From Synechococcus sp. SynAce01 (GTDB lineage: Bacteria > Cyanobacteriota > Cyanobacteriia > PCC-6307 > Cyanobiaceae), in assembly GCF_001885215.1 (NCBI RefSeq), contig NZ_CP018091.1, positions 1 through 64,000 of the forward strand: 64,000 bases of DNA, in the 5' to 3' direction. The notes below the pieces were generated by a model. The model was not told where the DNA came from. It saw only the letters and a program-made list of their open reading frames with translations, and did not search any database. Of the stretch, positions 37,761 through 60,758 are shown one piece after another (within the stretch, counting starts at the first letter, position 1; every line of letters begins with the position of its first letter). Made by a program: the position numbers and the translations under genes.

Positions 37761-39446
37761 CTATCCGTCAGGTGGATAGATCAGGCCTCCAACTCTGCTG
37801 ATTGCTGAGGCAATGAGCTCCAGCCGCTGCTGCAGGAATCGCTTGTAGTCGTCGTTCCACAGCCCTGACTCCGGTCCATGGGGAATCAAATGGCTGCTGA
37901 GCACGGCCCGCATAGGGAAGCCGGGTTCGTCGCGCAGTTCTGCCATGTAGGTGGAAGGGGCACTGCAGCTGATGCGCTGGTTGGTGGCACTGTCGATTAA
38001 GCAGCGGTTGAGCACGCAGTCGCGATGGCGAGAGTCGATGCCACGGTCATCTAGGAACTTGGCAGGGAAGATGTGGTGGTCGTCGATGCCGTTGCTGGCG
38101 AGCAGCTGATCGTTGAGCACGGCACGGCTGTGAAAGTCGAGTGGGCGATCGCCACTGGCGAGGATCAGGCAGATCGTGGCACGGTAGAGAGAGCGCTGGC
38201 GGGGAGTCACATCCCTGAGCTGGTCGGGGTTGAATCGGAAGCTGCGTACGTTCTCTGGCGCTGGCGCAGTTGGCTTACTTAGCCAGGGGATCAGCTCACT
38301 CACGTCGCGGCCGCTCTGGGTGTTTGGTGAGCTCTCGTAGGCCTGACTGAACACCGAGCACCAGAACCAGCGCTTGATCTGCTCGCGCTGGGCACCCACA
38401 GCTACGCCCTTGCCGGCACCGGCACGAGCGAGGGCAGCAGCCATCGGCGCGAGCATGGTGTTGTAGGGGAGCCACTTGGGCTGGAGCACCCAGCAGTCGT
38501 CGTGGAGGATCGTGAGCGAGAGCGCCAGGGCACGGGTCACGGGCTCCCACCAGGTGGTGACCTGCTCGGCACTGAGGTTGAGCACGTCGCCGCGTTTGCA
38601 GCTGGGGGTTTTGCCGCCAGCCAGGGCGATGGCCATCAGCACGTAGTAAGGGTCGACATCGAACTGAGCGATCAAGGGGTGATCGCTGTGGGCCTGCTCC
38701 CAAAGCTCGCGCAGCTTGAGGTCTCGGCTCCAGAAGCGGGCAGTGAGCAGCTCAAACACGCTGAGCTTCACGCCGGTGCGGTTCAGCGTTTCGAAGATCG
38801 TGCAGAGGGCCGCGGGCTCGGTCTCTGCGGAAAGGGTGACGACTGGGAAGACGTATTGGTCAATGCGGTTGATCCACTGAGCTTCCAGATCCTGAAGCTG
38901 ATCCTCCAATTGGTCGCGCTCTTCACCTTGGCGGGTACGGGCCACCTGAATGCCCCACTTGGAAAAACCTGTGCTGCCCTTATTGAGTAGGGAGAGTGGA
39001 AGCAGGAGCTGCTCGGCCTGCAGCTCGAACGCCTCTCGCTTGGCTACGGCTTTTCTGTTGTGGCGCAGATAGCCAATGGCGTCTTCGAAATCGGCACCGT
39101 CGATCAGGGCGCGGATGTCGAGGTAGTAGCGGTGATCGCCAACCCCATAGAAAGCCTGGTAGAGGGAGGTGAGTCGCTGCTGGCCATCGAGCACTAAGAA
39201 CGTGTGCTCGGTGTTGGCTGCAGGAGCTCCTTCAAACTCGCGGCTGGAGAAAGCTCTCTGACGATCACGCACGCGCAGGATACTGCCGGCGGGGTAGTTG
39301 TTGGCGATCGAGACGATCAGCGCCTGGGTAGCACTGGGCTCCCAGACGAAATCGCGCTGGAAATCGGGCAACACCATATCGCCGGTGTGGACCCGATCCA
39401 ATAGATCGAGCAGGGGCTTGGAGTTGGTGTCTTCATAGATGGTCAT
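37761..39446 (-). CDS. GmrSD-like DUF262/HNH nuclease
   Basis: A 561-residue protein with an N-terminal DUF262 domain (VLPDFQRDFVWEPSATQALIVSI, LVLDGQQRLTSLY near residue 87, FETLNRTGVKLS) and a C-terminal DUF1524-type HNH domain (DDHHIFPAKFLDD near 457). The arrangement is that of GmrSD type IV restriction enzymes, which use NTP hydrolysis to cut modified DNA; fused or shortened forms are common in DISARM, BREX and other islands. It overlaps the methylase gene by 4 bases, so it is translated with it. Active-site residues look intact. Confidence 0.88.
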   Translation of the reverse strand: MTIYEDTNSKPLLDLLDRVHTGDMVLPDFQRDFVWEPSATQALIVSIANNYPAGSILRVRDRQRAFSSREFEGAPAANTEHTFLVLDGQQRLTSLYQAFYGVGDHRYYLDIRALIDGADFEDAIGYLRHNRKAVAKREAFELQAEQLLLPLSLLNKGSTGFSKWGIQVARTRQGEERDQLEDQLQDLEAQWINRIDQYVFPVVTLSAETEPAALCTIFETLNRTGVKLSVFELLTARFWSRDLKLRELWEQAHSDHPLIAQFDVDPYYVLMAIALAGGKTPSCKRGDVLNLSAEQVTTWWEPVTRALALSLTILHDDCWVLQPKWLPYNTMLAPMAAALARAGAGKGVAVGAQREQIKRWFWCSVFSQAYESSPNTQSGRDVSELIPWLSKPTAPAPENVRSFRFNPDQLRDVTPRQRSLYRATICLILASGDRPLDFHSRAVLNDQLLASNGIDDHHIFPAKFLDDRGIDSRHRDCVLNRCLIDSATNQRISCSAPSTYMAELRDEPGFPMRAVLSSHLIPHGPESGLWNDDYKRFLQQRLELIASAISRVGGLIYPPDG

Positions 39447-42400
39447 GAGCCCACGCGGTGCTGCTCAAAAAAAACCCAAGCCACCCGGTAATCCCCCACC
39501 CGATCGCACCGATCAAACGGGGCTTCATAGGTAATCGTGCGCTCCACCGGCCCACCGGGCAGCGTGTCATCGATGATCGTGCGTGACACTGTGCCGGAGG
39601 TCATTTCACTAATGTCTTCCCAGCCGGTGGTTTTGTTGGCGCCGCGGCCTGAGCCCTTGCGTGGGAAGCCAACGCCTGTGAGCCCCTTGCTGGCAGTGAA
39701 GACGATGCGGCCGTTCTGGTCGTACCAGGTGTCGCGTTCGTATTGCTGCATCACCGGGAATTGCACCCGGTAGATCGTGATGAGTTCATCGAGGGTGAGG
39801 CCGAGGGCCTGGGCCACGAGCACGTCGATTTCCACCAGCGCTTGGCGGCGCATGTAATCGGTGCGCAGGGCGCAATCGCGTTGCCAGGTGGGGGTGAGGT
39901 TGGTGAAGAAGCTGTTAGACAGGCGGGGATCGTTTTTTGCCCAGCGTTGCTGACGGAAGGCATCATCCCAGCACTCGCTCCAGAGATCGGCGTAGTGGGT
40001 GGTGAGGCAGTTGAGGGAGAGGGTTCGTAGACGCAGCTTGTTTCGATTACTTGTGGCCTGAAGAGGAAATAACTGCATGTCGCCAGCTGTCAGATCCGAC
40101 TTCCCTGTTGATTTCAAATAGAAGTCAAGAGGAATTGACTGCAGCAGTGCACAGAAGTCAATAGCCTTGATCTGCTCGGCAAAGACAGTGGTCACCACGC
40201 TGATCACGTGGCCAGTCTTGGGAGGAGCAATCGACGGGATAAGAGTTCTTTCGCCTGACTGACTAAGGCGTTTGCGATGGGCCACCCGGTAAAACTCCGT
40301 CACCGGATACTTCTCCCCCCACGGCACCCGTGGCGTGCGAGCACGGTATTCAGCAGGCGACACATCCGGCCGGTAGTTGGTGCGGGGCAGGTAGTCATCG
40401 GGCAGGGTAGTGAGATCGAGGCAGTCGTAAGCTCTGTTTGTATTGCAGATCGCTTTTGGGGTTTGATAGAGAGGGTTGGCTACATTGAATAGGGGACCAG
40501 AAAGGATCAGCTCTGATGGATCTGGCGGAAAGCTGGTTTCGCGGCGGATTGTGCCGTCTTTCTGGGCGTTGGTTTCATGCCACATCTCTAAGGCAATGTA
40601 CTCACCCTGCAAATCGCCCAGCCGTTTCGGTGCAGCGGCGAACTTCTCCAGCACATTCAGAAGTTGCTGAGAATGGAGTGCCGGCAAACGGGCCTGATTG
40701 GCGGGGGTCCCTGGTTCGTCATAGAGGCGGGCGAAAAGCCGAAGGGTTTGCTCATCAACGGAAATCACTCTTTGTGGATGGCCTTTAAGCTCCCAGCGGC
40801 TCTTTGTGTCCTTGATGCCTGGGACTAGACCACCACCTTCAGAGTTAAAGCATTCAGAGAGAGATGAAGCCGCAAAGAGATTGGCAAGAGAAACAAATCT
40901 GATCTGGGTTTGATCTGCTGCTTGCTTTTGATACACGTTGATGCTGTATTTAACGGTGTTATGAATCTCGGCAAAGAGTTTGTACTCATTCTCGAATTGG
41001 AAGTGTCCACGCAGCCATCGATAAAGCACCTCCCGCAACTCACCGCCCTTCGGGTCGTCATAGACCCCTTCCGGATGCAGGAACCCCTGCACCCCCTGAT
41101 CTGAAGCCACTCGCCAGGCTTGGGGTAGGAAGCACTTGTAGAGGTTGGTCTGGCTGCCCTTAAGTAGCGGATAGTTGCCCACCGCATTGAGAAACGCCTG
41201 GCTGCCGTTCTGCCCCTCAAACTCCTCCAGGTAGGCCGCCCGCAGATCTGGGTGCACAGCCACTGCCTCCCCCCGCCGCTTGGCCAGCTCGCTGGCGCTC
41301 ACCTTGCGGATCAGCACCATCGGGTCGGCATCGCCGATTACGCCCTTCTCTTCCCACTCCACCTTTAGCCAGGGCGGGTTGCCCACGATCAGATCAAAGC
41401 CACCGCCCGCCAGTAGGTCGGCGAACTCCAGATCCCAATGCAGTGGCCGGATGCGGGCCGTCACTGCCTCCACCTGCCGCAGCCGTTCGAACTCTTCTTT
41501 GAGCTTCTGCACGTCCACGAAGCCGTGGCGGTCGGAAAAATCCACCGCCAGCTGCACCGGTTGCGTGTCGGCAAACAGATTTCCCTGGCCAGGTTCTGGC
41601 GATACGCCCTGCTCCAGATCGCCCAGGATCATGCTCAGCTCCAGCAGCCAGCTATCCCGGCTCGGCAATGAAACCGCCTGCTTGATCGGCCAAAACCAGA
41701 GCGCACACCAGTAGTCCATCGCCCACTTCAGCCGTAACCGTGCATTGGTGTTGGCCACGTCACGGCCCAGCACCTCCTGCTCCTGGATGCGGTCTTTCAG
41801 CTGCAGCGGGATCCAGGCGGCATCGGCTGCTCCGCTGGGCTCCTGAACTCCTGGCTCCTCCCACACCGGCAGCGGGTCGGTGGTGCGCTGGCGCAGCTGG
41901 GCCAGTTGCTGGGCCCAGTCCTGCATCAGTGAGTCCGTCAGCTTGCTGAGCCGCAGCAGGTGGGAAATCTGCGCTTCGGTGAACACCTCGCCCACAAACG
42001 CCTTGTTCCAGCGTTTGCAGCGCTCGATAGCCTCTGGTTCCAGCTCCTTGATCACCTTGTCGCCATAGGCGGCCATGCCTGGATCGGGCAGCAGGAAGTG
42101 GAAGATCCCATCCGCTGGTAGCTCTGCATCCCAGGCCAGTTCCTCCGGGGCGTGCTCGTGCCAGAGCCTGCGGGGCCTGGCGCTGCGAGTGGTGCTGGTG
42201 GGCAGCTGGCTCAGCCGATAGATCTGACGTCGGGCACCGATCAGGGAGTTGCCGCACACCAGTTGTTGGCTGAACCAGGGGATGAACGCCCGGCCATTTT
42301 CGGGCGTGAAGATGCTGTTGAGCCAGAGGCTCACCTCCGCCAGCTCCACCGCCACCGGGTTGAGGTCCACGCCGAACACGTTCTGGTCGGCCAGGCGCAT

Positions 42401-44362
42401 CTTCACCTTCTGCAGCTCGGTGGCGTACTGCTCATGGGGGATGCTCTTGCCGGTTTCCTGCTGGCGCCGTTCCAGGTAGGCCTGGGCCAGCTGGTTCACC
42501 ACCTCATTGAGGAACGCGGCTGAACCCATGGCGGGTTCGCAGATCCGCAGCTTGAGGATCTGGGCTGCCGTGAGCCCCGCCAGCAACTCCTTGAGCGCGT
42601 ACTTCACCAGGCAGCGGGTGAGGTCTTCTGGGGTGTAAAAGCTGGCGCTCTTCTGCCGGTCACGCCCCGCCAGGCGGTAGATGAAGCTGCCCTTTGGGTA
42701 ACACTTCGGCGTGCCGGTGGCTGGATCGGGCACGATCTCTTCGCGCCTGTAGGCCTTGAGCTGCTCAGCGCTCACGAAGTGACCCACCTCCAACTCGTCG
42801 TGCCCCTGGCCTGTGGCCTGGCCGCTGGCGCGGTTGTCGTCGCCATCGCTTTCGTTCTCTTCGGCGGCTTCATCGCCCTCGGCCGCAGGCCTACCGCCTT
42901 TCTTGGGTGGGGGCTGCACCTCGAAGAGGTCTTCTTCTGCGAAGAATCCCCGGAAGCTCAGCAGGGCCTCGTACACCGCACCCAGTTGGTTGATGCCCAG
43001 CTGCGCATAGCTCACCCGGCCCCGCCGCTTGCCGCTCTTCTCCCGCGTCAGCGACATCAGTTCGATTACCTCCCGCAGCACCACGTTGCGGAAGCGCACC
43101 CGCGTGAGGCTGGGCATGCGCTCGGGGTCGAACAAGTGCGCCTTCAGGGGCGTGAGCCGGAAGCTGTTGTGGAAGGGGTCGTCGGTATCAGCCAGGGGCA
43201 GCTGGGCTGTGGCGTCGTCGCGCTTGGGGAAGCCCTCCCAGATCAGCTGGAACAGCCGGTTCAGCGAGTCGCTGATGTAGGTGCCCTCCTGATCTTCCTC
43301 GCTGGAGAGCTCAGCAGTGTCCATCTCCCGCAGACTTTCGAGGCTGTAGCCCAGGCGATACACATCGCTGCCCATCGGCGCATAGCCCAGATCTGGCCGG
43401 CTCTCGATATAAAAGAGGAACAGCAGCCGGTACATGTAACGCAGGCATTCGCGCGTGAGTTGCTCGGCGTCGGTTTTGCCCTTGAACACGCCCTCATTGC
43501 GGCTGCGGCGCCAGTGGATCGCCTCGTTGCCGAGCAGCTCGATAGAGCGGCGCAGGGCGTATTTGAGATCGCCGCTCACCTCATAGGCGTGCTTGTGGCT
43601 GTTCTCATCGAGTTCATCGAGCAGCGGCGTGCCGCCCCCTTGCGGGCAGGTGTGCTCGCGGTGCAGCAGGGTGGCCGCCGCCAAAAGCGCATCGGGGTTG
43701 TTCTCGCCCAGCAGGGTGACGAGCTCAAAACGCAGCAGCCTGGAGGCGGCCCACTTCTGCCGGTCGATCAGCAGCAGCTGATCACGGCTCACCGCCAGCA
43801 CCCAGCGCGGCGGCAGTTCCTGGCCAAACACCCGTTCGCTGATCAGCGCCTCCCAGGCTTCGCCCGGCAGCACCAGTCCCAGCGTCGGGTCGAGGATCTG
43901 CCGCCCGTGGATGGTGAGATCGAGCGGATCGGTGGGCTCATCGCTGGGGTTGAAGCACTCCACAACCCACAGCCAGGGTTCGCCCTTGGCGTTGCGCACC
44001 TCAGCCAGCAGGGGCAGCTGGTAGGCCTCACCGCCGATCAGTACGGCTTCTGGCTTGGGGGCGTAGGGGTAGTTCAGGGCCTCCAGCAGCGGCTGGAAGA
44101 ACAGCTCCCGCTGCAGCCGCAACCGCTCGGCCGGATCGTTGGTGATGCCAAGTTCGGCCTCGCGCAGCTTCTGCCAGGGTTTGCGCAGTGCTTTGAACTG
44201 GGCCTCCGGGGTGCTCACCTCCGCTGTCGGATCCGCTTCCAGCTCGGCCTTGGCCTGCTCCGCCCAGCGCTCACGCACCTTCTTGATGTCGCCTGTCAGC
44301 ACGCTCTCGAGGTAGTGCGCCGAATAGAACTCGTTGGCGTTGCTGATGCCCGGTAACGCCAT
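39443..44362 (-). CDS. Large N6-adenine DNA methyltransferase, DrmMI/PglX-like
   Basis: A 1639-residue Eco57I-type methylase, intact over 4.9 kb. The SAM-binding motif ICEPAMGSAAFL lies near residue 611, followed by VFGVDLNPVAVELAEVSLWLN. The catalytic motif DLIVGNPPWLK lies near 994. The N-terminal 450 residues resemble the restriction-like N-terminal extension of these proteins, and the C-terminal 550 residues are a target-recognition region. It lies 4 bases behind the SNF2-type helicase. The DrmD plus DrmMI pair defines class 1 DISARM, where the methylase marks self DNA. PglX of BREX is a close relative, but no other BREX genes are present. Confidence 0.9.
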   Translation of the reverse strand: MALPGISNANEFYSAHYLESVLTGDIKKVRERWAEQAKAELEADPTAEVSTPEAQFKALRKPWQKLREAELGITNDPAERLRLQRELFFQPLLEALNYPYAPKPEAVLIGGEAYQLPLLAEVRNAKGEPWLWVVECFNPSDEPTDPLDLTIHGRQILDPTLGLVLPGEAWEALISERVFGQELPPRWVLAVSRDQLLLIDRQKWAASRLLRFELVTLLGENNPDALLAAATLLHREHTCPQGGGTPLLDELDENSHKHAYEVSGDLKYALRRSIELLGNEAIHWRRSRNEGVFKGKTDAEQLTRECLRYMYRLLFLFYIESRPDLGYAPMGSDVYRLGYSLESLREMDTAELSSEEDQEGTYISDSLNRLFQLIWEGFPKRDDATAQLPLADTDDPFHNSFRLTPLKAHLFDPERMPSLTRVRFRNVVLREVIELMSLTREKSGKRRGRVSYAQLGINQLGAVYEALLSFRGFFAEEDLFEVQPPPKKGGRPAAEGDEAAEENESDGDDNRASGQATGQGHDELEVGHFVSAEQLKAYRREEIVPDPATGTPKCYPKGSFIYRLAGRDRQKSASFYTPEDLTRCLVKYALKELLAGLTAAQILKLRICEPAMGSAAFLNEVVNQLAQAYLERRQQETGKSIPHEQYATELQKVKMRLADQNVFGVDLNPVAVELAEVSLWLNSIFTPENGRAFIPWFSQQLVCGNSLIGARRQIYRLSQLPTSTTRSARPRRLWHEHAPEELAWDAELPADGIFHFLLPDPGMAAYGDKVIKELEPEAIERCKRWNKAFVGEVFTEAQISHLLRLSKLTDSLMQDWAQQLAQLRQRTTDPLPVWEEPGVQEPSGAADAAWIPLQLKDRIQEQEVLGRDVANTNARLRLKWAMDYWCALWFWPIKQAVSLPSRDSWLLELSMILGDLEQGVSPEPGQGNLFADTQPVQLAVDFSDRHGFVDVQKLKEEFERLRQVEAVTARIRPLHWDLEFADLLAGGGFDLIVGNPPWLKVEWEEKGVIGDADPMVLIRKVSASELAKRRGEAVAVHPDLRAAYLEEFEGQNGSQAFLNAVGNYPLLKGSQTNLYKCFLPQAWRVASDQGVQGFLHPEGVYDDPKGGELREVLYRWLRGHFQFENEYKLFAEIHNTVKYSINVYQKQAADQTQIRFVSLANLFAASSLSECFNSEGGGLVPGIKDTKSRWELKGHPQRVISVDEQTLRLFARLYDEPGTPANQARLPALHSQQLLNVLEKFAAAPKRLGDLQGEYIALEMWHETNAQKDGTIRRETSFPPDPSELILSGPLFNVANPLYQTPKAICNTNRAYDCLDLTTLPDDYLPRTNYRPDVSPAEYRARTPRVPWGEKYPVTEFYRVAHRKRLSQSGERTLIPSIAPPKTGHVISVVTTVFAEQIKAIDFCALLQSIPLDFYLKSTGKSDLTAGDMQLFPLQATSNRNKLRLRTLSLNCLTTHYADLWSECWDDAFRQQRWAKNDPRLSNSFFTNLTPTWQRDCALRTDYMRRQALVEIDVLVAQALGLTLDELITIYRVQFPVMQQYERDTWYDQNGRIVFTASKGLTGVGFPRKGSGRGANKTTGWEDISEMTSGTVSRTIIDDTLPGGPVERTITYEAPFDRCDRVGDYRVAWVFFEQHRVGS

Positions 44363-54631: not shown

Positions 54632-55539
54632 TTGTATTTCTGGCGCAGTTTCATCGAGGACGGCAGCACCGCGACCGCATTTGAGAACACCCGGAAGTTT
54701 GCCAAGGTTTATCGGCTGGCCGCCGCCAAGAACCCGCCGCCGATGCAGTTCATCAATGTGTCGGTAAGTTCTTCAATACCATTGGCAGGAACGACTACAG
54801 TTTTTTTCACTGACATCGATGAAATCGTCCAAGCCCAGCCGAACGAGGCCTCCAGCGCAGAAATCCTGGGCATGCTGGCCACCATTTGCATCGAGAAGGG
54901 CAAGGCCTTCAATCCGGACGCCAAGCTCAAGAAGATGCTGAGCGAAGTCGTGGCTGTGGGCAATGCCACCGCCCGCACCATCGCCTACAAGCCGCGAATG
55001 AAGGAGGCTTTCCTGAATCCGGGCAGCGCATGGTTCTTCCCATTCGTGGGCGGGAGCTACCAGTTCCTCTCGCAACCGGGCTGCGCAACCTGGCATCACG
55101 TGTCCTGTACTCCTACAACTACACCGGTGTCACTCCGGCGATGGCGTTCGAAATGGTGGGCGTCGGCTCGCAGTACGTGATGGCGACCAGCGGCGCCAAG
55201 GGCATGCCGCTGGAAGGTGCCAAGACCTACAAAATTCAGCTGCCACCGAAAATCCCGGCCAAAGACTTCTGGTCCTTCGTCGCTTATGACAACCAGATCC
55301 GCTCAATGCTGCAGACCGACCAGCATTTTCCGAGCATCGGCAGCAAGGATAAGGACATCGTCATCAATGGCGACGGTTCGGTTAATGTCTGGTTTGGACC
55401 CACGGTCCCCAAGGTGCATGAAAACAATTGGGTTAAGACCGCTTCCGGCAGGGGCCGGTGCGTGCTGCTGCGCCTGTATGGGCCCGAGAAGAGCTGGTTC
55501 GACAAGACTTGGAAGCTGAGTGAGTTAGAATTTCAATAG
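54632..55539 (+). pseudogene. DUF1254/DUF1214 protein fragment with a frameshift
   Basis: The frame reads YFWRSFIEDGSTATAFENTRKFAKVYRLA, AEILGMLATICIEKGKAFNPDAKLKKML and AVGNATARTIAYKPR, as in the C-terminal half of DUF1254 proteins. It loses frame near 55085 and continues in another frame as GVTPAMAFEMVGVGSQYVMAT, DFWSFVAYDNQIRSMLQTDQHFPS and LRLYGPEKSWFDKTWK. The normal N-terminal half and signal peptide are missing, so this is a decayed, 5'-truncated import. GC is higher than in the adjacent cassettes, suggesting a different donor. Confidence 0.7.
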
Positions 55540-55549
55540 GAATAAAGTC

Positions 55550-55620
55550 GGGCATCCCTCACTCCTCACTGCCGGAACTGGATGCCCGAGTGGCCAGACG
55601 CCGAGCAAAGCCGTGAACCG
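55550..55620 (+). terminator. Terminator-like hairpin after the DUF1254 fragment
   Basis: GGGCATCC and GGATGCCC (about 55551-55608) can form a strong stem around a 30-base loop. No T-run follows, so it may instead be a cassette-end structure. Weak support. Confidence 0.3.
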
Positions 55621-55778
55621 GAGCGGCAACGTTGAGCAGATTCAAGTCGACAATCTTCTGTCACCCCAGGTTATGGCAAGCGATGGGGGGGGCAGGCAAC
55701 AGCTCTTCGCTATCATAATGCGTGGATAGATTCGCATAGCCTTGTCATTTGTACTTAACTCTTGCGCCCATACACAGC

Positions 55779-56834
55779 ATGTCTACCACAGAACTTGACC
55801 ACGCACTGACCGAGGCCAGAAACACGCTCACAGCGGATCGTTTAGATATGAGTTTCGGCGAGCTTATCAATATGTATGACTCAGGTGAGTTAATAATCGA
55901 TCCAGAGTTTCAGAGGTATTTTAGATGGGGTGTAGAGCAAAGAACTCGATTCATTGAATCAATCTTGTGTGGCATTCCGGTCCCATCCTTATTCATGGCA
56001 GAAGATCAGGATGGCAAGTGGGAAGTGGTTGACGGCCTTCAGAGACTCAGCACTGTTCTTTCCTTCTTTGGCAAGCTGCAAGGCCACAAGTCAAGTGAGA
56101 ATCACTGGCAGATGGGGGCAGGAGATATTGTTCAGGAGCTTGATGGCAAAAGTGTAGACGATCTCCCCCTGAAGTTTCAGCTCAACATCAAGAGAAGCCC
56201 TGTAAGAATTGAAGTTGTAAAGTGGGATTCTAAGTATGACATGCGGTATGAACTCTTCAATCGCTTGAACACTGGTGGCTCACCATTAACCGATCAAGAA
56301 GTGCGCAATTGCATTTTTCGGGGAACAGGTAATGATTTGTCAAATGAGATTCACGGGCTCGCGTCCAACGAACTGCTCGTGGAATTGGTGGCGCCGAGCG
56401 ATCGCAAAAAGGCAGGATTATATCTAGATGAGTTGGTCCTGAGATTTTACGCATTGCTCTGGTCGCAAGCACCACGAAATAATCTTGGCGAGCACTTGAC
56501 CGAATACATGAGGGCTGCATCTGAAAGGCATGAGTTGTATCAAGGCATGAAAGAATTATTTTTAAGAACTCTTGATGCGCTATCTAAAGCAGGCATTGAG
56601 AAGGTTTTCCAAGGGGCAAACTATCAGTTCTCCCCATCAAAATACGATGGGATTATGATTGGCATCGCAGAGAATATCGAGCACTGCGAAGGTGATTCAT
56701 CATTCGTTGCTGTGCGGATTAACAGGCTTAATGCAGACAGTGAATTTAAATCTGCGACGGGTGTGGGGTCAAACTACAAGGAAAGAGTCAAGAAGAGAAT
56801 TGAACGCGCAAAATCTGTATTTAGCAATGACTGA
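55779..56834 (+). CDS. DUF262 (GmrS-like) protein
   Basis: A 351-residue DUF262 protein with the ParB/Srx-like N-terminal core: MSFGELINMYDSGELIIDPEFQRYFRWG, ESILCGIPVPSLF and VVDGLQRLSTVLSFF (the D-G-x-Q-R-L motif), then FNRLNTGGSPLT. No HNH domain is attached, so it is GmrS-like only. It overlaps a HEPN-nuclease gene by 8 bases. DUF262 plus MAE_28990-type HEPN is a recurrent two-gene defence or toxin-antitoxin-like module. AT-rich compared with the host. I start at MSTTELDH. Confidence 0.85.
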   Translation: MSTTELDHALTEARNTLTADRLDMSFGELINMYDSGELIIDPEFQRYFRWGVEQRTRFIESILCGIPVPSLFMAEDQDGKWEVVDGLQRLSTVLSFFGKLQGHKSSENHWQMGAGDIVQELDGKSVDDLPLKFQLNIKRSPVRIEVVKWDSKYDMRYELFNRLNTGGSPLTDQEVRNCIFRGTGNDLSNEIHGLASNELLVELVAPSDRKKAGLYLDELVLRFYALLWSQAPRNNLGEHLTEYMRAASERHELYQGMKELFLRTLDALSKAGIEKVFQGANYQFSPSKYDGIMIGIAENIEHCEGDSSFVAVRINRLNADSEFKSATGVGSNYKERVKKRIERAKSVFSND

Positions 56835-57447
56835 TCTACGCGAGGAGTTATTTGAAGTGATTGACCGCCGTCAATCAGATATAGCGCTTGCCAAGAGATC
56901 CATATGCCTTGCCCGAACCGAGGCCCAAAGGAGTTTACTTTTCAGAGCATGTACTCTATTGATATATGCGGCTCTTGAGGGTGGCTGCAAGGAAATGACT
57001 AGCTGCTTGCTTTCAAGGGTTGCCAAGACTCGACCAAATATCTCTGACTTGGCTACGCCTTTCCTGTTTTTAGCCATCAAAAGATCTTGCCGCATAGGCG
57101 AAGCTGTTCTTGACTTACAAAAGAGGCACAAGCTTGCCGAAGAGGTGAGAGAGGCGGTTTCTGGGCCGGTCAAGATGCCAGGCTCTATCAATATAGAGTC
57201 TAACCTGACCCCGAAGACATTGATGAGAATGTGCCAGTCGCTGATGATTAAATATCCACTGGATAACGCTGGCGAACAGGAATTAAACCTGCTACTTCGC
57301 TACCGTAATAACATCGCTCATGGTGATCAGAATATGCCAATTGACATGATGCGGATCGATCAGTTCAGTCATATTGCTCAGTTCATACTCGTAGAAGTAG
57401 CTAGTGAAGTAAGTGACTGCAGTGTCAACGCTTATTGGAGGCGATGA
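56827..57447 (+). CDS. HEPN-fold RNase, MAE_28990/MAE_18760-like
   Basis: A 206-residue all-helical protein. The N-terminal MTDLREELFEVIDRRQSDIALAK and LLIYAALEGGCKEMTSCLL segments match the MAE_28990 family (Y-A-x-x-E-G). The C-terminal LLLRYRNNIAHGDQ (about 154-167) contains the HEPN R-x4-6-H catalytic motif. HEPN proteins of this sort cut RNA and are held in check or targeted by their partner, here the overlapping DUF262 protein. The pair is followed by an attC-like site, so it may be mobile as a two-gene cassette. Confidence 0.75.
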   Translation: MTDLREELFEVIDRRQSDIALAKRSICLARTEAQRSLLFRACTLLIYAALEGGCKEMTSCLLSRVAKTRPNISDLATPFLFLAIKRSCRIGEAVLDLQKRHKLAEEVREAVSGPVKMPGSINIESNLTPKTLMRMCQSLMIKYPLDNAGEQELNLLLRYRNNIAHGDQNMPIDMMRIDQFSHIAQFILVEVASEVSDCSVNAYWRR

Positions 57448-57465
57448 GGCGCTGTCTCTTTGCCC

Positions 57466-57556
57466 ACCAATAAGCCCCTCAAGTGGACAGGCCGCCGCCA
57501 TCTTCTGTTTCGCCACCTCAGGCTCCTTGCCTGCAACTCAGGGGCAACGTTAATTG
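57466..57556 (+). repeat. attC-like recombination site, degenerate ends
   Basis: The left arm AAGCCCCTCAAGTGGACAGG pairs imperfectly with the right arm CCTGCAACTCAGGGGCAACG, which runs into GTTAATT. The same arm wording, CAGCCCCTCGAGTGGACAGG, is found in the attC site at 60650, so the two belong to one family. The outer heptamers (ACCAATA and GTTAATT) have drifted from the RYYYAAC/GTTRRRY consensus. Confidence 0.6.
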
Positions 57557-57783
57557 CTCTCAGCATCCCTAGCGAACGTCCTTTATAGGCGGTCTAGTTT
57601 CTACACGTCCCTCAGTAACTTATTCAGCCATTTGGATTTTATGTCTAACGCTAGGGCACTTTCAAGAATCCGATAACTCAACCGAGACTGCGATTCTGAT
57701 TCCAGTCACAGCAATGGGTCTCAACTGACTGGAAGATCAAGAACAGTGATTTATCGAGGTGCCCTTAAGATTGGCTGTTTTTT
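57557..57783. other. Intergenic spacer, no gene seen
   Basis: About 230 bases between the attC-like site and the 3' end of msrA. A GTCTAACGC string occurs near 57641 and may be the left end of another eroded attC site, but I could not find its right partner. Confidence 0.3.
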
Positions 57784-59467: not shown

Positions 59468-59590
59468 GCCTCGACCACAACCCGCGTCCCCGGGGTCTCC
59501 AGCCTGCTCCCGGCTGCCAGCGTGGGGGCAGCTTTGATCCCCGCACCCGCACCCTGGTGCTCGATCTGGTGCTGGCCCTGATCAACGAAG
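59449..59590 (+). pseudogene. Gene fragment cut by an insertion-sequence remnant
   Basis: A plus-strand segment in which one frame reads GSFDPRTRTLVLDLVLALINEDPAHG and stops at 59616, directly where transposase homology begins on the other strand. It may be the start of a host gene truncated by the IS. Weak support; the identity is unknown. Confidence 0.2.
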
Positions 59591-59920
59591 ACCCCGCTCA
59601 CGGCAATACGCACTGAGCTCAGTCGCGTCTAGCCCGGCAGTCTCCAGCACCACCGTGAACTTGTCGGTGGCACCCCAGCCCTCGGGATCTTTCGCCGATG
59701 CCGGCACCACTTCACCCTGCAACCGCCAGGTCTTCCTCCATTTGTAGAGGGTCACCACGTGAATACCCAGTTCCTCAGAAATCCGGGCCACGCTCTGCCT
59801 GTGCGGCGGGCTCATCCGCTTCCTCACGTCAGCCTTGACGGCCTCGCTGTATCCGCGCATTGGTCATGTCCTCAAGCCCCCGGGTGTACTGATGAGAGGG
59901 GTGACATCTTTCCTGAAACT
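59582..59920 (-). mobile_element. IS3-family remnant with truncated transposase OrfA
   Basis: A minus-strand frame of 92 codons (59582-59860) encodes the start of an IS3-type OrfA: MRGYSEAVKADVRKRMSPPHRQSVARI, the helix-turn-helix ARISEELGIHVVTLYKWRKTW, and DKFTVVLETAGLDATELSAYCRERGL. Homology ends abruptly at the RERGL residues (about 59588) and the remainder of OrfA and all of OrfB are absent. An end-like sequence, TGACATCTTTCCTGAAACTG, lies at about 59902-59921, just before the DUF1353 gene. A dead fragment. Confidence 0.75.
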
Positions 59921-59957
59921 GGGGGCAACAGAAGATAACGTTTTTGGGATTCTGTTG

Positions 59958-60599
59958 ATGTCTTCTCTGGCGGAATTGGTAAGGTTCCCCTCGGGTTTGA
60001 CTGCATTTATTGACATGACCCAGAATCATGGATTCTTCTCTGGACGGCCACTAGCTAGATGGCTCACGGGAGACAAGCCAGACAGAAAGATGGTTCTTGA
60101 AGAGGCCTTCATATTTACTGATCCCGAGGGGAAAGTATGGGAAGTTCCTGCTGGCTACTCAATAGATGGTGCTTCAATACCCAAAGCCCTATGGTCGCTT
60201 ATTGGTTCGCCATACACAGGTGACTATAGGAGGGCTAGCATTGTCCACGACAAGGCATGTGACGACGCAAAGAAGGACTTCAATGCTCGCCGTGCTGCAG
60301 ATAGAATGTTCTTCCACGCATGCAGGGCTGGTGGATGCAGTACGGATGAAGCGAAAACTCTTTACTTGGGCGTCAGGATGGGAGCATTAAAAGATCAGAT
60401 TCCACTCTGGTCGGATAGCATTACTGAATCATTTTCTCCAAGACCAAGAGCTTCGATTCCTTTAGGCGACCGTAGAATCGAAACAGACTTTCGGCTTGCT
60501 AGAGAAGTACTGAGACGTGAGGTGGAAACAGATGATCCTTTGGAACTTGAAGAACAGGTTGACAGGGCTCTTGAGCTTGTGGGCGCAGGCACACCATGA
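59958..60599 (+). CDS. DUF1353 family protein
   Basis: A 213-residue protein with a DUF1353 core: EVPAGYSIDGASIPKALWSLIGSPYTGDYRRASIVHDKACDDAKK, typical in the D-G-A-S-I-P and V-H-D motifs. DUF1353 proteins are common on phages and mobile elements; function unknown. The first Met of the good-composition region is 59958; ATG 60015 is an alternative. AT-rich and followed by an attC site, so probably an integron-type cassette. Confidence 0.75.
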   Translation: MSSLAELVRFPSGLTAFIDMTQNHGFFSGRPLARWLTGDKPDRKMVLEEAFIFTDPEGKVWEVPAGYSIDGASIPKALWSLIGSPYTGDYRRASIVHDKACDDAKKDFNARRAADRMFFHACRAGGCSTDEAKTLYLGVRMGALKDQIPLWSDSITESFSPRPRASIPLGDRRIETDFRLAREVLRREVETDDPLELEEQVDRALELVGAGTP

Positions 60600-60649
60600 G
60601 TTCTCTGCATAACTGGCTGAGTCCATAACTTGATTGAATGGGCAGTGGC

Positions 60650-60742
60650 ATCTAACCAGCCCCTCGAGTGGACAGGCCCACCTCAAGCAATCTGCTTCTC
60701 CGCCCTAGGCTCTCTGCCTGCCACCCAGGGGCAGAGTTGGGC
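60650..60742 (+). repeat. attC recombination site
   Basis: A 93-base site bounded by ATCTAAC (fits RYYYAAC) and GTTGGGC (fits GTTRRRY). The inner arms CAGCCCCTCGAGTGGACAGG and CCTGCCACCCAGGGGCAG are inverted partners, like the site at 57466. It lies between the DUF1353 stop and the start of the next small gene, the canonical place for attC. Confidence 0.7.
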
Positions 60743-60758
60743 GCCACAGGAGAGACTT

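Follow-up and report, generated by a model that had tools for sequence, protein, structure and literature searches.

Did the two overlapping genes at 55779-57447 in the chromosome of Synechococcus sp. SynAce01 arrive as one integron cassette, and do they form an anti-phage module? Both lie in the window, which covers the first 64 kb of a 2.75 Mb genome on a single contig that encodes PsaA and PsaB, as befits a cyanobacterium. A first-pass annotation had described in it an AT-rich, overlapping pair of DUF262 and MAE_28990-like HEPN genes that ends just 5' of an attC-like site. That description stands, coordinates and names included. The first gene (55779..56834, plus strand, 351 aa) encodes a DUF262/GmrSD_N protein of the ParB/Srx-fold NTPase type (PF03235, E=3.1e-27), and the second (56827..57447, plus strand, 206 aa) a nuclease-type HEPN protein of the MAE_28990/RiboL-PSP-HEPN type (PF18735, 4.6e-16; PF18737, 8.6e-15). 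The genes have 8 nt in common, and their GC contents, 45.4% and 46.5%, compare with 63.2% for the window and with 66-70% for the genes downstream of the pair. The HEPN stop codon lies 15 nt before an attC at 57462-57560, inside which the end coordinate of the annotation falls. On balance, we lean toward the reading that the pair is a PD-T4-2-like two-gene anti-phage module that was horizontally acquired as an integron cassette and is now a lone one with a partly decayed attC.

A conserved two-gene operon

The DUF262-HEPN pair is a conserved operon and a real unit. Scans of GTDB genomes and IMG/VR, seeded by an eight-sequence DUF262 alignment, confirmed at least 561 and 221 DUF262 relatives, respectively, and we used the best 80 of each. 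A HEPN frame lies directly 3' of DUF262 at 76/80 of these best GTDB loci and 69/80 of these best viral loci. In the resulting 145 pairs the two genes overlap (87), are 0-30 nt apart (56) or lie further from each other (2), and the HEPN partner carries an RN..xH motif in 64/76 genomic and 58/69 viral cases. A HEPN-annotated partner is likewise present in all six plasmid homologues examined. The SynAce01 pair has the makeup of a DUF262-HEPN (PD-T4-2-like) module, that is, a PD-T4-2_A/NsnA-type protein with a HEPN protein bearing Rx4-6H encoded directly downstream; no sigma-70-type promoter was seen upstream of it. The DUF262 protein was found in none of 36 genus and family relatives of the host, which we take as support for horizontal acquisition of the pair, and homologues in 7/23 other members of the class are at most 37% identical to it.

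The window also holds, as annotated at first pass, a second and unrelated DUF262 gene of different architecture (37761-39446, minus strand, 561 aa); inspection by eye suggests an HNH-like tail. It adjoins a 1639-aa Eco57I-type methylase in a separate defence locus (37761-44362, minus strand). A third DUF262 gene of the genome, at G000:C1:389949-390608 (minus strand), has one TGA within the match.

The attC downstream of the pair

The hairpin at 57462..57560 (plus strand) is a genuine attC. It scores 80.5 bits with a covariance model; because both window sites were used in building the attC model R1, R1 scores for them are circular, and leave-one-out nhmmer provides the independent check, with E=1.5e-14 when this site is left out of the profile and 6.1e-12 when both window sites are. 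The best match of the attC profile in the reversed window is 0.65. The hairpin resembles other sites in the host genome and has what marks a cassette end, namely a position 3' of a gene, the same orientation as that gene and a covarying imperfect hairpin.

Its boxes are less well preserved. Canonical integron boxes read RYYYAAC (R'') and GTTRRRY (R'), and both the R''-like CACCAAT (57465-57471) and the R'-like GTTAATT (57549-57555) are degenerate, with mismatches to the consensus in each; the site could therefore be dead. It folds as single-stranded DNA no better than shuffled sequences do (z -0.69), versus z -5.45 for L012:5196-5304. A second attC of the same family (60647..60747, plus strand, 84.2 bits with the covariance model) begins 48 nt downstream of a DUF1353 gene (59835-60599; PF07087, 2.3e-20), and msrA and an acetyltransferase-like gene lie on the other strand between the pair and this site. 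The DUF1353 gene and its attC (59835-60747, plus strand) look like a second lone-cassette-like unit, with a transposase-like frame at the left (59582-59860, minus strand, by eye).

A left boundary for the pair was sought in several ways. The attC model finds no attC upstream (best E 0.27, filters off); a seeming decayed hairpin at 55560-55645, which ends in GCAACGTTGAGC, was rejected as attC on its fold (z 0.18) and model score (E 0.27). No box complementary to the R'' of attC 57462-57560 occurs within 250 nt, a 3-kb search returned only chance-like one-mismatch matches inside genes, and the same 3-kb search found no left box for attC 60647 either. GTTGAGC at 55634..55640 (plus strand) is the sole GTTRRRY match within 240 nt upstream of the DUF262 start and a weak candidate for the boundary, with 5/9 mismatches to the box expected from R'' and no support from the attC model. 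Since the relatives searched show no synteny for the flanking genes, and in relatives homology to the DUF1214 gene stops at about 55529, no empty-site junction can be read. This DUF1214 gene (54632-55539, plus strand), the immediate upstream neighbour of the pair, seems to be split between two frames.

Integron components in the host and its family

The covariance model identifies seven attC sites in the host genome, an eighth row being one site read backwards. Among 61 genomes of the host's family, the attC family occurs in 14 and an integron integrase (E<=1e-30) in 11, all of them within the 14 (P=9e-10), a co-occurrence for which genome size is a possible confounder, as both are confined to larger genomes. 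In an alignment of all 54 attC matches, which was fitted to the structure and includes five reverse readings of listed sites, 95.3% of helix cells are paired and 13/17 pairs have two-sided changes, with a covariation score of 0.329 versus 0.073 for shuffles. With 12 matches that score no more than 37 bits set aside (five are reverse readings), 33 of the remaining 42 sites have a co-oriented ORF end beside them, compared with 6/42 on the other side and 243/800 random positions; these sites are not independent, since some cassettes have the same gene. The left-box search covered 23 of these 42 family sites; 12 of the 23 are preceded, at a distance of about 490-1470 nt, by a nine-base box that is the exact complement of R'', about 0.3 being expected by hand arithmetic, and such a box marks the left edge of a cassette.

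The genome encodes an intact intI (G000:C1:183055-183924, minus strand; 400.8 bits, cut-off 265), and an array of diverse attC-like sites lies near it, at about 169-175 kb and about 110 kb from the pair. Sites beyond the 3' end of intI (L012 4465-4554, 5201-5298, 6025-6122, 8380-8467 and 10096-10182, minus strand) are on the intI strand, so that the cassettes run in the direction of intI; cassettes divergent from intI are the usual integron layout. The same order is seen in G078, G008 and G026, each time on one contig. Two broken integron-integrase relics (G000:C1:329126-330033 and 1244822-1245404) and other tyrosine recombinases with identical scores (179613, 182092, 260517) are also present in the host. 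Frames of equal length recur before attC in several genomes, of 102 aa ending 51 nt before the site and of 110 aa ending 4 nt before it (L012 5201, L027 3501, L241 1814 and 6495, L248 1306; L027 2677, L242 1837, L255 1804); they are probably shared cassette cargo.

Taken together, the missing left box and upstream attC, the degenerate boxes, the poor fold and the distance to the array mean that the pair can be no more than an isolated, partly decayed cassette. Its arrival as a mobile gene cassette seems likely, although the cassette reading is incomplete in the window.

The cassette state of homologues

The nearest homologues among the matches listed are from Thiohalobacter thiocyanaticus (59%) and Marinospirillum perlucidum (57%). 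In the Thiohalobacter locus (L072) the pair is preceded by an R' box, GTTATGGGA, and followed by an R'' box, TCCCATAAC, which are exact complements; it is placed after an Mrr_cat cassette gene and an attC, and the genome has an intI (428.6 bits) far from the pair. A repeat splits the downstream attC of L072, and no second copy of the upstream attC occurs in that genome. The proposal of the first-pass annotation that a nuclease-type defence module is linked to integron mobility is thus borne out in part: the attC is real, its family occurs in 11/11 intI genomes, and the closest listed homologue sits between matching boundary boxes in an intI genome, whereas the window offers neither a left boundary nor an intact R''/R' pair.

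A generic scan for R''/R' hairpins at -18 kcal/mol gave real matches not above shuffles in three of five regions, and a stricter scan of the 145 pairs gave 10 matches versus 1 in shuffles. Because the generic scan was too noisy, a boundary-box test was used in its place, on 142 loci with both flanks and with swapped flanks as control. Exact matching boxes occur at 5/142 loci versus 26/4233 swapped flanks (P=0.002), and elsewhere the pair is mostly not a cassette, 137/142 loci being without such boxes. Of the five, L072, L077 and L123 look two-sided, L082 is doubtful, and the boxes of L153 are far from the genes.

In two Bacteroidota loci, L123 (127-2040) and L077 (4934-6780), the pair lies between attC-like hairpins whose boxes are exactly complementary. 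Among 49 pair-bearing genomes searched, drawn from 80 loci and some of them incomplete, seven have an intI at E<=1e-60, six of them over the cut-off; the search found no integron integrase in the genomes of L077, L082 and L123, again with some genomes incomplete, and this weakens the cassette claim for Bacteroidota. We tentatively raise the possibility that the DUF262-HEPN pair recurs as a two-gene integron cassette in different phyla (a cyanobacterium, Gammaproteobacteria and Bacteroidota), with the local attC type in each lineage; such a cassette would carry a GmrSD-like sensor that has parted with its DNA nuclease and acts instead with an RNase in trans, the two being compact enough to travel together. 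In Bacteroidota, the pair may travel between attC-like hairpins with no integron integrase found in the genome (L077, L123).

Could the pair instead have come by another route, through a plasmid, a phage or recombination into a patchy island, the attC being left over from some other cassette, since lost, and lying downstream by chance? The missing left boundary and the degenerate R boxes of attC 57462-57560 would fit, as would the next attC (60647), which is also one-sided and separated by chromosomal genes, and homologues of the pair on plasmids and viral contigs are common. Yet the 15-nt spacing and the orientation of the attC are typical of cassettes, the low GC of the pair extends to the attC, and the closest listed homologue (L072) is a two-sided cassette. 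We judge arrival by another route fairly unlikely.

The two proteins and their proposed function

Above the Pfam cut-offs the DUF262 protein has PF03235 only and the HEPN protein HEPN families only, so that a DUF1524/HNH nuclease domain is absent from both; a PDB sequence search returned no relevant relative for either. Among PADLOC models the DUF262 protein matches NsnA (1.1e-55) slightly better than PD-T4-2_A (4.9e-52); the origin of the name NsnA was not found in the literature. Its DG-L-QR motif occupies codons 85-89 (56031-56045), and D85, G86, Q88 and R89, plus others, are invariant in an alignment of 45 sequences, which took in 44 of 48 homologues and left out near-duplicates and a few others. 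The predicted model (pLDDT 88.2) has BrxU and SspE as its nearest solved structures, followed by ParB and sulfiredoxin.

The HEPN protein carries an RNNIAH motif, R160-H165 (57304-57321), and E51; Y47, E51, R160 and H165 are invariant in an alignment of 42 sequences, which took in 41 of 48 homologues, again leaving out near-duplicates and a few others. No PADLOC family matches the protein at E<=1, PD-T4-2_B included, and PD-T4-2_B matches one of the six plasmid HEPN partners, weakly. The closest structures to its predicted model (pLDDT 93.7) are HEPN toxins of MNT-HEPN pairs, in alignments of about 126 residues (Z about 10, rmsd about 4), a modest score for a helical protein, and Foldseek with the model gave no match under E 0.001. 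An all-helical HEPN fold with the glutamate and RN..xH, as modelled here, points to a HEPN ribonuclease.

SspE is described as activating its nuclease through NTPase activity upon recognition (PMC10952713), and by analogy the DUF262 protein most likely gates the HEPN RNase. We posit that the DUF262 protein, with its GmrSD/BrxU/SspE NTPase-type domain and no HNH nuclease of its own, senses infection through a phage product or through nucleic acid that is modified or foreign, and that NTP binding or hydrolysis then releases or activates the HEPN protein, which would provide the nuclease in trans. A HEPN dimer could cut RNA through the E51/R160/H165 site, halting translation in an abortive response; in the uninfected cell the RNase would probably be held in check by the DUF262 protein. 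The two genes would have been carried as one unit by IntI-type recombination at attC. Relatives of the pair suggest that its role is probably anti-phage.

A plain toxin-antitoxin module, in which a HEPN toxin and a DUF262 antitoxin stabilise the cassette by addiction and play no anti-phage role, is in our view unlikely. It would account for the toxin-like fold, with best matches to HEPN toxins of MNT-HEPN pairs, and for the overlap of the two genes, and the text available of PMC3710099 proposes dormancy induction for HEPN proteins in integron cassettes. Against it, four of the six plasmid homologues lie near restriction-modification or methylase genes, a relative, PD-T4-2, is reported to protect against T4, and DUF262 is better conserved than HEPN (mean column identity 42% versus 30%), which is unusual for an antitoxin. 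Type IV GmrSD-like restriction, in which DUF262 would recognise modified DNA and its partner help DNA cleavage, draws on the DUF262 fold, which matches BrxU and SspE, but we think it very improbable, as a DUF1524/HNH domain is found in neither protein and RNase-type residues mark the HEPN partner. That the pair is decayed, non-functional leftovers, as the broken DUF1214 neighbour and degenerate attC boxes might hint, is most unlikely, given that both reading frames are intact and every invariant residue is kept.

Comparison with known systems

The anti-phage module that we favor has its nearest described counterpart in PD-T4-2, composed of DUF262 and HEPN proteins (PMC10952713), which protects E. 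coli against T4; in ECOR65, T4 plating returns once the system is deleted (Vassallo et al. 2022, PMC9519451). Both systems join a DUF262 to a HEPN (PF18735) protein, and the PD-T4-2_A model recognizes the host DUF262 protein; in contrast, NsnA fits it slightly better, and PD-T4-2_B does not match the host HEPN, which at the sequence level would place the pair outside PD-T4-2 sensu stricto. A cassette setting is proposed here for the host pair, whereas the available text of PMC9519451 gives none for PD-T4-2. With GmrSD, BrxU and SspE the pair has in common a DUF262 NTPase-type domain and the DG-x-QR motif, but it has a separate HEPN protein in place of the DUF1524 nuclease, and judged by its domains it would not be a GmrSD type IV restriction enzyme. 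A MAE_28990 HEPN in an operon with a ParB-type gene was listed already in 2013 (Anantharaman et al., PMC3710099, Table 1), with the same HEPN family and gene neighbourhood as in the host; the text available of that paper gives no integron setting for MAE_28990, and its integron-cassette HEPN (PDB 3jrt) belongs to another family.

Cyanobacteria have an attC covariance model in print (PMC8352920), and Synechococcus has an entry among chromosomal integrons (PMC3108266); in contrast to what is proposed for the present locus, the accessible portions of these two papers report no defence cassette. A DUF262-HEPN cassette was not found in the literature searched, which took in few subscription papers and no primary reports on integron-borne defence. 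Publications already exist on each of the three elements, the pair, defence borne by integrons and attC in cyanobacteria; their combination was not found in that literature. The attC family and the matching boundary boxes can readily serve to inventory cassette cargo, including defence genes, in genomes of the host's family, and the pair would illustrate that a two-protein sensor-RNase system can fit one cassette. Integron-borne anti-phage cassettes (Darracq, Littner et al.; Kieffer et al.; Getz et al.) were reviewed in 2025 (PMC12409362), and the likeness lies in small defence modules carried as attC cassettes; those covered in the available text of that review are from Vibrio or mobile integrons, whereas the SynAce01 pair, as a lone cyanobacterial cassette, would extend the view of integrons as phage-defence stockpiles beyond Vibrio and clinical integrons.
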